IMG/VR virus record: IMGVR_UViG_3300023175_000085
Span: 1-42,259 of that record
Strand: one strand, 5' to 3'
Source: a virus
DNA length: 42,259 nucleotides
Position 1 is the first letter of the stretch. The number at the start of each line of letters is the position of its first letter. Made by a program: the position numbers and the translations under genes. Under the pieces are notes generated by a model, which was not told where the DNA came from, searched no databases, and was given only the letters and a program-made list of their open reading frames with translations. Positions 3,858-41,963 of this stretch are shown here, piece after piece.

Positions 3858-4232
3858 ATGAATTTGACAGAATCAACCTTTCTGCTATACGCTATGAAAC
3901 ACTATGATAATCCTCAGTGCACCGATATGGTGGAGTTTGAGGAAGATCTAAAAAGATTTCAGTATTTGCGTAAACTCTTTGGTCGCTATAGACACGAAGA
4001 TGAATTGAAAGAAAGGTTGATTCTGAATCACTTAATAGTACTATATAATGTTTTTGGACCGAGTGCTACGAACATGTTATTCATGAAGCTCAGAGAATTT
4101 CATGAATATCTCAAACCATTTGTCGTTTATCTTAACTATATGCCGACTGTGGTTATGTACGAAGACATTCAAATTGCTGCAGATAGTATAGTGTCTGATC
4201 AAAAGATTTTAGACACACTAATAAGGATCTAA
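3858..4232 (+). CDS. Conserved T4-like-phage hypothetical protein
   Basis: 124 residues, predicted all-helical, with many Leu, Tyr and Phe (MNLTESTFLLYAMKHY at the start, then MVEFEEDLKRFQYLRKLF). It resembles a family conserved next to the 4234-type protein in marine T4-like phages, from memory. No Shine-Dalgarno sequence is seen before ATG 3858: the upstream 20 nt are a T-rich tract, so translation may depend on coupling or on an unstructured leader. The next gene starts 1 nt after its stop, implying linked function. The biochemical role is unknown. Confidence 0.75.
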   Translation: MNLTESTFLLYAMKHYDNPQCTDMVEFEEDLKRFQYLRKLFGRYRHEDELKERLILNHLIVLYNVFGPSATNMLFMKLREFHEYLKPFVVYLNYMPTVVMYEDIQIAADSIVSDQKILDTLIRI

Positions 4233-6729: not shown

Positions 6730-6759
6730 TTGACATTTACCTATAAACTGTTATATAAT
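6730..6759 (+). promoter_or_regulatory. Sigma70-type promoter
   Basis: TTGACA at 6730-6735 and TATAAT at 6754-6759 are perfect consensus hexamers with an 18-bp spacer. They begin right at the stop of the o-spanin gene. It drives the 6838 gene and possibly the primase operon. Confidence 0.75.
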
Positions 6760-6766
6760 GGCTGCT

Positions 6767-6774
6767 TATAAATA
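6767..6774 (+). promoter_or_regulatory. T4-type late promoter (TATAAATA)
   Basis: An exact late box 7 bp downstream of the sigma70 -10 element. A related GATAAATA lies at 6783-6790. The 6838 gene may therefore be transcribed both early and late. Confidence 0.65.
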
Positions 6775-6790
6775 AGGCTCCAGATAAATA

Positions 6791-6822
6791 GTTAGCATTA
6801 CGAATTAAAACGTGGTGCTAAC
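6791..6822 (+). promoter_or_regulatory. Leader hairpin just upstream of the ribosome binding site
   Basis: GTTAGCA (6791-6797) and TGCTAAC (6816-6822) are perfectly complementary, with an inner ACG/CGT helix at 6800-6802/6811-6813. The hairpin ends 4 nt before the AGAGGAG ribosome binding site of the 6838 gene. It could stabilise the mRNA 5-prime end or tune translation. Confidence 0.55.
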
Positions 6823-6837
6823 TTAGAGGAGCTAGAC

Positions 6838-7323
6838 ATGGCAGAGCCAGATATTAAAACTGACATTGCCCTCATTAAGAAAGACATCAAGCAAATTGAA
6901 AACTTTTTTTCGCGCGTCGAAAGCAGTATGGAAACACTGGTTGATGTTTCTAAAATGGCGGCCGTTCAAGAAGAAGTCCTTAAGATCGCTTCTGAAAAAT
7001 TAGAAGATCTTGAAGATAGAATCGAAGTTCATCGTAAAGAAGATGAAGCTCGCGTGCTCGAAATGAGTAAGAAGCTAGAGGAATATCGCGAATCCTCTCG
7101 CCAAGACCATAAGAGACTCGCTGAACACAATGCAAAGAATCGCCTTAAGCATGACGAAATAATTTTAGAAAAAATGGAAGCTTTAGCATTAGATCTTACT
7201 ACTCGATTAGATGACCACGGTCAAAGACTTCGATCACTCGAGCATTGGAAGTACTACCTAATGGGCCTGGGTGGTGCTGTGGCGTTCTTGGGCCTTGAGC
7301 ATTTTGCTAAAATTATCGGTTGA
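6838..7323 (+). CDS. Coiled-coil protein with C-terminal membrane anchor
   Basis: 161 residues. Residues 1-130 are charged and heptad-like (KKDIKQIENFFSRVESSM, then KLEDLEDRIEVHRK), indicating a long coiled coil. Residues about 138-155 (YYLMGLGGAVAFLGLEHF) are one membrane helix near the C-terminus. Similar tail-anchored coiled-coil proteins occur in T4-like marine phages, some annotated as holin-like or as hypothetical. No catalytic motif is seen. It has an AGAGGAG ribosome binding site, two promoter types and a leader hairpin, suggesting careful control. Confidence 0.75.
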   Translation: MAEPDIKTDIALIKKDIKQIENFFSRVESSMETLVDVSKMAAVQEEVLKIASEKLEDLEDRIEVHRKEDEARVLEMSKKLEEYRESSRQDHKRLAEHNAKNRLKHDEIILEKMEALALDLTTRLDDHGQRLRSLEHWKYYLMGLGGAVAFLGLEHFAKIIG

Positions 7324-20770: not shown

Positions 20771-21097
20771 ATGGAAAATACTTATTGGAATGGTACTGGA
20801 ACTTGGCAGGATCTGTCTGAGAAATTGGAAGAATTCGTGCCTGCAATGGGCGAGTGTGAGAACAAGAAAGTCGAGCGATTCCGCAAGGCTTCTAATGCTT
20901 ACTACGATATCTTCAACAACGGCGGTTGTAATCGTGGTCCATCGATCGGCAAGTTCTTTCCTGGCGTAATGGCAGAAATTAACGAGTCTTATCGCTATCG
21001 TAGCAATCCCAACTGGGATTACATCCATCGAATCGTTGAGCCAAAGATGGACGAGATCATTCTCGAGACTGCAAAAAAAGTTGGTCTTAGGGGTTGA
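20771..21097 (+). CDS. MENTYW-family small phage protein
   Basis: 108 residues from ATG 20771. The longer upstream frame lies inside the previous gene. The N-terminal half matches the gene at 41466: MENTYW-GTG, then a helix, then NAYYDIFNNGG versus GYDFYNNGM. These are paralogues within one genome. This copy lacks the C-terminal Cys-rich tail of the other. An AGAGAGA purine stretch precedes the start. Function is unknown, and the operon with 20437 is under an early-type promoter. Confidence 0.8.
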   Translation: MENTYWNGTGTWQDLSEKLEEFVPAMGECENKKVERFRKASNAYYDIFNNGGCNRGPSIGKFFPGVMAEINESYRYRSNPNWDYIHRIVEPKMDEIILETAKKVGLRG

Positions 21098-21122
21098 CAT
21101 ATGCACCCAGCTATGGTAGAAT
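21094..21122 (+). promoter_or_regulatory. Sigma70-type promoter of the non-coding region
   Basis: TTGACA 21094-21099, 17-bp spacer, TAGAAT 21117-21122. It overlaps the stop codon of the 20771 gene. A start site 7-8 bp beyond the -10 falls at 21129-21130, exactly where the first helix of the candidate RNA begins. Confidence 0.75.
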
Positions 21123-21129
21123 AGCTTTT

Positions 21130-21195
21130 GAACTGGTGGGAATAGGCCACGGCGCTCCGAGAGCATGACGGTAACGAACCACCAGTTCTCTTTTT
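21130..21195 (+). ncRNA. Candidate small structured RNA
   Basis: GAACTGGTGG (21130-21139) pairs perfectly over 10 bp with CCACCAGTTC (21179-21188), and TCTTTTTATT follows at once, as in an intrinsic terminator. The 5-prime arm coincides with the predicted start of the 21094 promoter. The product would be a self-contained RNA of about 60-65 nt closed by a terminal stem. Inside, GCTC/GAGC (21154-21157/21161-21164) makes a hairpin with a CGA loop. It is too short for a tRNA and matches no RNA family I know. No reading frame with a ribosome binding site is present. Confidence 0.6.
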
Positions 21196-21202
21196 ATTAT
21201 GA

Positions 21203-21357
21203 ATAGAGTCGGCGCTTTTTCAATAGCCGGCAAGGGGACGAGTGACACGGAGGTGAGCCTGCCGTACACCCCCGAAAAATGGAAAATTGAGAACCGTGTC
21301 ACTCACTAATATAGAACTCTATCACTGTTGACCTGCCCATCGACGGATGAGGGGGCA
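21203..21357 (+). ncRNA. Structured non-coding region, possible three-way-junction RNA or leader
   Basis: Several nested helices can be drawn. P1 is ATAGAGT (21203-21209) with ACTCTAT (21316-21322). P2 is GTCGGC (21208-21213) with GCCGGC (21226-21231), sharing two bases with P1. P3 is an 11-bp perfect stem GAGTGACACGG (21240-21250) with CCGTGTCACTC (21294-21304), with GGTG/CACC inside it. A further hairpin has TGCCC (21334-21338) and GGGCA (21353-21357), with CATC-GACG-GATG at its tip. P1 enclosing P2 and P3 is a three-way-junction layout, common in riboswitches and regulatory RNAs. The stretch 21098-21395 has no supported gene. It could be the 5-prime leader of 21396. Confidence 0.5.
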
Positions 21358-21395
21358 TCACTGCGCTGGGGTTCTTCCTAATTGGAGACTTTGCA

Positions 21396-21842
21396 ATGAC
21401 AATGCATTTATTGAAAGGCTACTCTTCTCTTAATACTCGTAAGCCAACAGTCAAACTTACAAAGGCAAAACTTGCTGAGCTTGAAATACAATGGCGAGCT
21501 CATAACAAACTTATGCGCCAAAAGCATCTTCACGATAGCCAGTATAAAACACTGGAAGAATATATAGACTATGCCTTTGGGAAAGTTAAACTTAAAAAGG
21601 AATTTAAACCCTATGAGACGACAAATAAGGCGTACACGCGCGCAACACCAAACTACCCTTCGGCAGACAGCGCGCAGAAGAGAGGCCTTACGTCTCAGCA
21701 AACAACAAATCCAACGCCCCGCAGAGAGCCCCAAAAGTATACAGGCACTCTAGTGAAAGGTATTAGCACCATGCATAAATCAAACGCGGTGCCTATCATT
21801 GACGAAAAAGAAGCAAAAGATCATGCTAGCATGAGGCGTTAA
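21396..21842 (+). CDS. Conserved T4-like-phage hypothetical protein
   Basis: 148 residues with GGAGA at 21384-21388. Sections KLTKAKLAELEIQWRAHNK near the N-terminus and GISTMHKSNAVPI with a final SMRR match a family I recall from marine T4-like phages. The middle is basic and low-complexity (TTNPTPRREPQ). Function is unknown. The protein follows the long structured leader, so its expression may be RNA-controlled. Confidence 0.85.
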   Translation: MTMHLLKGYSSLNTRKPTVKLTKAKLAELEIQWRAHNKLMRQKHLHDSQYKTLEEYIDYAFGKVKLKKEFKPYETTNKAYTRATPNYPSADSAQKRGLTSQQTTNPTPRREPQKYTGTLVKGISTMHKSNAVPIIDEKEAKDHASMRR

Positions 21843-23348: not shown

Positions 23349-23915
23349 ATGATGGTAATAGCTGGTGTGGACTACAGCCTAACAAGTCCGGCAATATGCG
23401 TACACCATGGTGATGAATGGAAATATGAAAACTGTCAATTCCACTTCTTCAGAAAGAAAAAGCAAACCGATGGTGGCGAATTCGTTGGATATGACTACCC
23501 AGAATGGGTCAATGATCAAGACAGATACGAAAAACTCTCAGCCTGGTCACTCGACGTTATGTTCTTTAATGACGTATCGAAGGCATATATTGAGGGATAT
23601 GCATTTGGCGCTGTTGGGCGTGTATTTAATATAGCTGAGAATGGTGGTTACCTAAAACAGCGATTATGGTTATGTGGTATTCCATTTGAGGTTCCTGCCC
23701 CAACCGTAATCAAGAAATTCGGCAGTGGTAAAGGTAATGCCAGTAAAGAATTGATGTATGAATCATTTATTGCTGAAACAGGGGTTGACATTCGAGCTAG
23801 ACTTGATATAATATCAACTAAAAATTGGAACCCCATCAGTGACATCATTGATGCTTATTACATAGCTAAATACGGCTTTTTTGAGGAAAAAACAGATAAT
23901 GATACTAATCTTTAA
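23349..23915 (+). CDS. RuvC-like Holliday-junction resolvase
   Basis: 188 residues (ATG 23352 is an alternative start; GGAG is at 23340-23343). The RNase H-fold acidic set is visible: D8 in GVDYSLTSPA, E82 in YIEGYAFG, D165 and D168 in SDIIDAYYIAKYG. This is the pattern of phage RuvC-type endonucleases, which would cleave branched DNA before packaging or resolve recombination intermediates. It overlaps the following kinase gene by 17 bp. T4 itself uses the unrelated gp49 for this step. Confidence 0.82.
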   Translation: MMVIAGVDYSLTSPAICVHHGDEWKYENCQFHFFRKKKQTDGGEFVGYDYPEWVNDQDRYEKLSAWSLDVMFFNDVSKAYIEGYAFGAVGRVFNIAENGGYLKQRLWLCGIPFEVPAPTVIKKFGSGKGNASKELMYESFIAETGVDIRARLDIISTKNWNPISDIIDAYYIAKYGFFEEKTDNDTNL

Positions 23916-36347: not shown

Positions 36348-36380
36348 GCCTTGAGATTTGTATATTGATTAAGGTATAAT

Positions 36381-36968
36381 ATGAAAACTAATATTTTGCT
36401 TTTTGTTATTTTGCTCCTAGGCTTTTCTTCTAGTCCATATGCACAAGAAGAAACACCAGATCCGATAGATGATGTGATCAGATCAGAGGCGACGACCACC
36501 AGTACAGTGACAACGAATGGTAATACAACTACTACTCTAAAATCACCTCCTGCTAGTGCAATATCCCCAACGATCAACACATCGAATTCCGACCTCTGTA
36601 CATTTGGAGTTGCTGGGGCAATACAAACACAGATTCTTGGTGTATCTACGGGAACACAATTTACTGATGAGAACTGTGAAAGATTAAAGAACGCTAAGAC
36701 TCTTTATGATATGGGAATGAAGGTCGCTGCCGTTTCTTTGATGTGTCAAGACAAGAGAGTCTTTGATGCGATGATGAATGCAGGAACTCCCTGCCCATAT
36801 GATGGTTTAATCGGCCAAGAGGCAAAAGCAGCTTGGAAGGTAAATGCTCAAGACGAACCTCTTGCTGAGGGCGAAAAGGGTAAAAAGGAGGAACTGGACG
36901 TTGATCAAAAGACACTCATGGCCGCTGGTGGGGTTGCTGGTTTGCTTCTTCTGCTTGTCTTACTCTGA
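36381..36968 (+). CDS. Exported protein with signal peptide and C-terminal membrane anchor
   Basis: 195 residues. The signal peptide is about 1-21 (LLFVILLLGFSSSPYAQ, cleavage after AYAQ-type site). A Thr/Asn-rich linker (TTTSTVTTNGNTTTTL) follows. A Cys-containing domain (LCTFGVAGAIQTQILGVSTG ... ENCERLKNAKTLYDMGMKVAAVSLMCQ) resembles a conserved protein of marine T4-like phages. The last about 20 residues (AAGGVAGLLLLLVLL) form a membrane helix. The gene lies under a late promoter box and overlaps the next gene in another frame. Confidence 0.8.
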   Translation: MKTNILLFVILLLGFSSSPYAQEETPDPIDDVIRSEATTTSTVTTNGNTTTTLKSPPASAISPTINTSNSDLCTFGVAGAIQTQILGVSTGTQFTDENCERLKNAKTLYDMGMKVAAVSLMCQDKRVFDAMMNAGTPCPYDGLIGQEAKAAWKVNAQDEPLAEGEKGKKEELDVDQKTLMAAGGVAGLLLLLVLL

Positions 36969-40665: not shown

Positions 40666-40721
40666 ATATTCCAAAATATTCTAAAAAAAGTGTTGACTTT
40701 GTCAGCATAGCCCCTTATAAT
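40666..40721 (+). promoter_or_regulatory. Early promoter with conserved upstream element (copy 2)
   Basis: TTGACT 40693-40698, 17-bp spacer ending AGCATAGCCCCT, TATAAT 40716-40721. The 22-bp AT-rich element (40666-40687) repeats the one at 33095 with one mismatch but sits 10 bp closer to the -35. Confidence 0.8.
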
Positions 40722-41465: not shown

Positions 41466-41963
41466 ATGGAAAACACATATTGGAGTGGTACTGGAAAATA
41501 TCAAGCTGCTTACGAAGAATTGGTTGCGGCAATGCCGAGGATGGGCAAGTGTGATACTGTTGCTGGAGAAATGATTCGGGCCGCAAGTCGTATAGGTTAT
41601 GATTTCTATAATAACGGTATGGGTAATAACACTTCTGGTTCTTTGAATTACCTTCGTGAACAATCAGCCATCGATGACGATATCTATGACGCCATTTATG
41701 GGTATACTCGTGGTCGAATTTATAACGGCCATTACGAGGGTGATTCTCTTCAGGTAGCCATTGAGAGCATGGTAGACCAGACTGTTGGAATGATCGTTCA
41801 CAACCCAGTCCTCATGACGATTGAGAACAAAGAAGATATGTTCGACTATCAAGAGGAAGAGCAGTCTTTCTGCGAGACGTGTGGATGCGAGATGGATGAT
41901 AACCGCGGCTGGTACTGTGAGGACTGTGAATATTGGATGGAAGAGGAAGAAGAATATGTTTAA
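41466..41963 (+). CDS. MENTYW-family protein with C-terminal zinc ribbon
   Basis: 165 residues. The N-terminal half is a paralogue of gene 20771 (MENTYWSGTG, MIRAASRIGYDFYNNGMGNN). A middle helical region (DAIYGYTRGRIYNGHYEGD) and an acidic tail with two CxxC pairs (FCETCGCEMDD, WYCEDCEYW) make a zinc ribbon not present in the other copy. GGTAGAGAC at 41457-41465 is a poor ribosome binding site. Its 3-prime end overlaps the next gene by 8 bp. Function unknown. Confidence 0.8.
   Translation: MENTYWSGTGKYQAAYEELVAAMPRMGKCDTVAGEMIRAASRIGYDFYNNGMGNNTSGSLNYLREQSAIDDDIYDAIYGYTRGRIYNGHYEGDSLQVAIESMVDQTVGMIVHNPVLMTIENKEDMFDYQEEEQSFCETCGCEMDDNRGWYCEDCEYWMEEEEEYV

Follow-up and report, generated by a model that had tools for sequence, protein, structure and literature searches.

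A stem and U-tract at the predicted start of a phage transcript

The question raised by this locus is whether a strong phage promoter in front of a long non-coding gap drives a small RNA of its own or only the structured leader of the next gene. The window, meaning the whole stretch of DNA that was analysed, is the 42.3-kb IMG/VR record IMGVR_UViG_3300023175_000085. On its plus strand, a sigma70-type promoter (TTGACA-17-TAGAAT, 11/12 match) was identified at 21094-21122, where it overlaps the stop codon of the upstream gene. Its -10 box TAGAAT, ending at 21122, is preceded by TG, and no better promoter match was found within 19-23.5 kb. Transcription is predicted to start at 21129/21130, in agreement with the original prediction of a consensus promoter with this start. 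The gap comprises 298 non-coding nt between the end of the upstream ORF at 21097 and the start of the next ORF at 21396 (21396-21842, plus strand), which encodes 148 aa and is assigned to phrog_27048 (unknown function).

Promoters matching at least 11/12 positions occur 12 times on the plus strand and once on the minus strand of the window, compared to 1.15 expected for both strands, and this strand bias indicates that the promoter type is used by the phage. Most of the other strong promoters have an ORF within 5-30 nt and an unstructured leader, whereas the leader starting at 21129 is 267 nt long, with an MFE of -53.7 in its first 150 nt. Three promoters are exceptional. The one at 23785 lies inside an ORF, and that at 36351 has a nominal 457-nt leader that is an artefact of the coarse ORF list, as an ORF start at 36381 precedes the predicted transcription start. 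The third, at 6730, is a 12/12 match with a structured 72-nt leader (6730-6838 for promoter and leader; GTTAGCA...TGCTAAC within GGCTCC...GGAGCT, MFE -25.9), for which no Rfam match was obtained.

Directly at the predicted start lies element A, a putative RNA of 59 nt (21130-21188, plus strand) consisting of a 10-bp closing stem, an internal loop and a small inner hairpin. The closing stem is formed by GAACTGGTGG (21130-21139) and CCACCAGTTC (21179-21188), which are exactly complementary and separated by 39 nt; the inner hairpin, GCUC-CGA-GAGC (21154-21157/21161-21164), has only 4 bp. The U-tract TCTTTTTATT (21189-21198) follows directly 3' of A and is likely a partial or weak terminator. Both the 10-bp pairing from the predicted start and the U-run behind it were recovered as originally described. 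For 21128-21197 the MFE was -26.3 kcal/mol, compared to -15.7 ± 2.8 for shuffled sequences (z -3.73), and none of 200 shuffles folded as well.

The chance of such an arrangement was estimated by searching for a perfect 10-bp stem that encloses 25-60 nt and is followed by a tail window of 8 bases with 6 or more T. One such site is present in the real window, compared to 0.05 expected per dinucleotide-shuffled window (both strands), and a stem and tail in register with an 11/12 promoter were found in 0 of 100 shuffled windows, which bears out the claim that a chance coincidence is unlikely.

The d'Aubenton-Carafa-type terminator score of A was -15.8 (nT 3.3), where a positive score is the usual call; the value is negative owing to the 39-nt interior enclosed by the stem, and termination at A would be expected to be partial, not complete. 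The original proposal of a self-terminating small RNA of ~60 nt is therefore retained only in part. Promoter, stem and U-tract go far beyond chance and the gap is non-coding, but self-termination is made less certain by the score and by the 267-nt leader, in which A is followed by two further elements, B and C, and then by an ORF.

A possible 13-codon ORF, MTVTNHQFSFYYE (21165-21206, plus strand), spans the 3' arm and the U-tract. A could be a regulated attenuator, in which translation of this ORF, or a ligand, sets whether the polymerase stops or continues into B, C and the genes that follow. In favor of this, the overlap of the ORF with the 3' arm is exact, and the inner hairpin takes up part of the ORF's start region; moreover, the related phage Melnitz carries a glutamine riboswitch at its tmRNA, which lies just 3' of an early promoter (PMC9004378). 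However, the ORF has no clear Shine-Dalgarno sequence, the MFE folds contain no alternative antiterminator stem and no riboswitch family was matched, which makes an attenuator unlikely. Base-pairing targets of A were also searched near gene starts within the window, and none was convincing, with 46 of 200 shuffles scoring as good.

Relatives of the phage and copies of A

Among phage records, the ribonucleotide reductase of the window is closest to that of Methylophilales phage Melnitz (73% identical), a T4-like marine myovirus for which a glutamine riboswitch and a tmRNA in two pieces have been published (PMC9004378); both were confirmed in the Melnitz sequence. Judged from this similarity, the source of the window is most likely a Melnitz-like marine T4-type phage. 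A permuted tmRNA of the alphaproteobacterial type was identified in the related contigs L088-L090 and L094 (by ARAGORN in all four and by Rfam in L088); in L088 it is located at 6944-7215 and has the tag ANDDNYYGDVALAA.

The original prediction of a new RNA was consistent with the Infernal search of Rfam (4227 models), in which no match in the window reached the gathering score. With permissive filters and E up to 10, only chance-level matches were obtained in 20900-21500, and no family fits A, B or C. Under the same limit the glutamine riboswitch RF01739 was not matched in this region, while the Melnitz copy was detected by the same search engine. Among 50,697 phage records, blastn found no match to 20900-21500, and its matches to B and C were at chance level.

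Scanning viral contigs with three patterns identified genuine copies of A in L002 and L003 only. Fourteen further matches to the relaxed pattern were rejected, as they lack the closing stem and resemble coding DNA. In scans of genome contigs neither A nor C was found. A covariance model of A (R1) was searched against 77 sources and 12 whole viral records and returned the known copies only; a 15.7-bit match in L090/L094 was judged to be chance (E 2.6). The outer stem, which holds most of the pairing information, is right in this model, but the inner hairpin is misplaced by two columns, so a weakly similar A could be missed.

Over 8.5 kb, L002 and the window share 99.95% identity, and L003 is a related strain in which the neighboring genes are ~68 to 99% identical. 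The proposed covariation check in related phage contigs thus yielded copies, but A is identical in all of them (window, L002 and L003) and its stem shows no variation. Across the 298-nt gap, L003 differs from the window at a single site, 21318 (T to C), where a U-G pair in the stem of C becomes C-G and the pairing is kept. The rate at third codon positions in the two genes on either side (8 changes in 258) predicts ~9 changes for the gap (Poisson about 0.001 for the one seen). Recent recombination of the block, instead of selection, could explain this low number. For A alone, 0 changes versus ~1.8 expected is not significant, the test having no power at this size.

B and C are structured neighbors of A

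Element B (21234-21304, plus strand) has an 11-bp stem (21240-21250/21294-21304) and a possible H-type pseudoknot, predicted between GGGG at 21234-21237 and CCCCC at 21269-21273. Its counterpart in the sister phage L047 is located at 4120-4200; the 11-bp stem is kept exactly in the sister phages, with changes and a 2-nt indel in the loop. A coding reading of B was rejected, as the frame 21199-21309 is shifted by the 2-nt indel relative to L047 with the stem intact. By eye, A and B resemble each other in CACGG ... GUAAC, from which no relationship is claimed.

Element C (21313-21375, plus strand) consists of a 9-bp closing stem around a 46-nt core, with counterparts at 4371-4433 in L047 and 7009-7071 in L088. 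The core is identical in the gap of the window, beside the tRNA-Tyr of L047 and in L088, L089, L090 and L094, where it lies within the intervening segment of the permuted tmRNA. In the tmRNA group, 5 of the 9 pairs of the closing stem are changed on both sides and all still pair (three distinct sequences), although the outer C stem of L088 may partly belong to the tmRNA precursor, as Melnitz has its own closing stem there. C is therefore well supported, by sequence comparison, as a structured RNA module. With B and C on its 3' side, A belongs to a locus devoted to structured RNA.

This sharing of the gap with two other structured elements, together with the joint coincidence in 0 of 100 shuffled windows, speaks against A being a chance palindrome without function. 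That A lacks a diverged homolog and is absent from the sister phages would fit such a palindrome, which is nevertheless considered quite improbable.

In the sister phages L047 and L048 the order is promoter, B, a 52-aa ORF, C and tRNA-Tyr, followed by the same downstream ORF, and A is absent, which implies that A is dispensable. B directly behind the promoter in these phages means that a leader role of A is possible as well. The main rival to a small RNA is accordingly that A is purely a 5' leader, which would tune elongation or shield the early mRNA against decay that depends on the 5' end (RppH/RNase E), with no separate small RNA and with an incidental U-run. The stem of A begins at the predicted +1, its terminator score is negative, an ORF follows in cis 267 nt downstream, and B holds the same post-promoter place in L047/L048 with no U-tract behind it. 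Against a pure leader speaks that a T-rich tail right after a perfect stem is rare (the 1 site against 0.05 expected), and this rival is regarded as a serious but clearly less than even possibility.

A predicted early RNA with partial read-through

Judged from the promoter, stem and U-tract present in the sequence, A looks like a real structured phage RNA, whose transcription we infer. The preferred reading, held with roughly even confidence, is that A is the structured beginning of an early transcript and a small RNA with partial read-through. Host RNA polymerase, starting at 21129/21130 from the strong early promoter, would first produce 59 nt that fold at once into the 10-bp stem closing a bulged inner hairpin. 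At the U-tract (21189-21198) some polymerases would release a compact RNA of ~60-70 nt with a blunt or paired, decay-resistant 5' end, and the remaining ones would continue across B and C to reach the gene at 21396. In this way A would be an abundant small RNA and, at the same time, restrain the operon that follows.

This small-RNA reading is favored by the register of promoter, stem and U-run, by the fold (z -3.73) and by the contrast between the 267-nt structured leader and the mostly unstructured 5-30 nt leaders elsewhere. Further arguments are the low divergence of the gap in L003 (1 of 298 sites versus ~9 expected, with the change keeping a C pair) and the structured neighbors B and C, which have homologs elsewhere. 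Against it count the negative canonical terminator score, the lack of A in the sister phages, the lack of a convincing target in the window and the lack of diverged homologs, owing to which there is no covariation for A.

Phage-encoded small RNAs, including OOP, have been reviewed (PMC12197685). Those with their own promoter, such as OOP and CfrI of cyanophage S-PM2, are likewise short and located in phage intergenic regions; for A, the promoter and the U-rich end are predicted. In contrast to them, A has no antisense target beneath it or known partner, and it is known from its sequence, compared through Rfam only.

The glutamine riboswitch (RF01739) and the permuted tmRNA (RF04321/RF01849) of Melnitz come from the same broad phage group by protein similarity. 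The parallel lies in the placement of structured RNAs close to an early promoter and to tRNA or tmRNA genes, with C in the tmRNA intervening segment of L088-L090 and L094. The difference is that no Rfam family, whether of riboswitches or of other RNAs, matches A, B or C. The wcaG, manA, glnA and abiF RNAs are small structured RNAs of T4-like cyanophages (PMC9964418), and A, B and C remained unmatched to them at E up to 10 with permissive filters.

Like A, the put RNA of HK022 is a nascent structured RNA right after an early promoter, and A might act on RNA polymerase in the same manner, suppressing later pausing and termination. The general parallel to put (PMC9378689) concerns position and nascent structure. 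While put suppresses termination, A ends in a U-tract, which put does not need, and many other promoters of the phage have no such leader, which renders this mode of action very unlikely. By analogy, A may work like phage small RNAs, riboswitches or put-like RNAs, all of which are known kinds.

Most of what is known of structured RNAs in marine T4-like phages comes from Rfam matches, and orphan elements like A are therefore overlooked. Transcription of A, if it occurs, would add a small early RNA to a phage group in which a glutamine riboswitch and a tmRNA are already known from the isolate Melnitz. Any wider novelty would rest with module C and with the exchange of modules between loci. C, with its three settings (the gap, before tRNA-Tyr and the permuted tmRNA precursor), offers an example on which the transfer of an RNA domain from one stable-RNA locus to another can be tested. 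More tentatively still, and with considerable doubt, A, B and C may be exchangeable structured-RNA cassettes that marine T4-like phages position downstream of early promoters and next to or within tRNA and tmRNA genes. On this view C would be a mobile RNA domain that has a ligand or protein of its own and was inserted into both the tmRNA precursor and the tRNA-Tyr leader, and A would be a newly acquired member of the same system.

Two separate observations concern the surroundings of promoters. The small gene upstream of A (20771-21097) and a second one at 41466-41963 are paralogous, with ~49% identity over 51 aa and a strong promoter beside each. A 31-nt stretch of the window (40667-40697) is nearly identical to L047 3576-3606, both being located upstream of promoters at differing genome positions.
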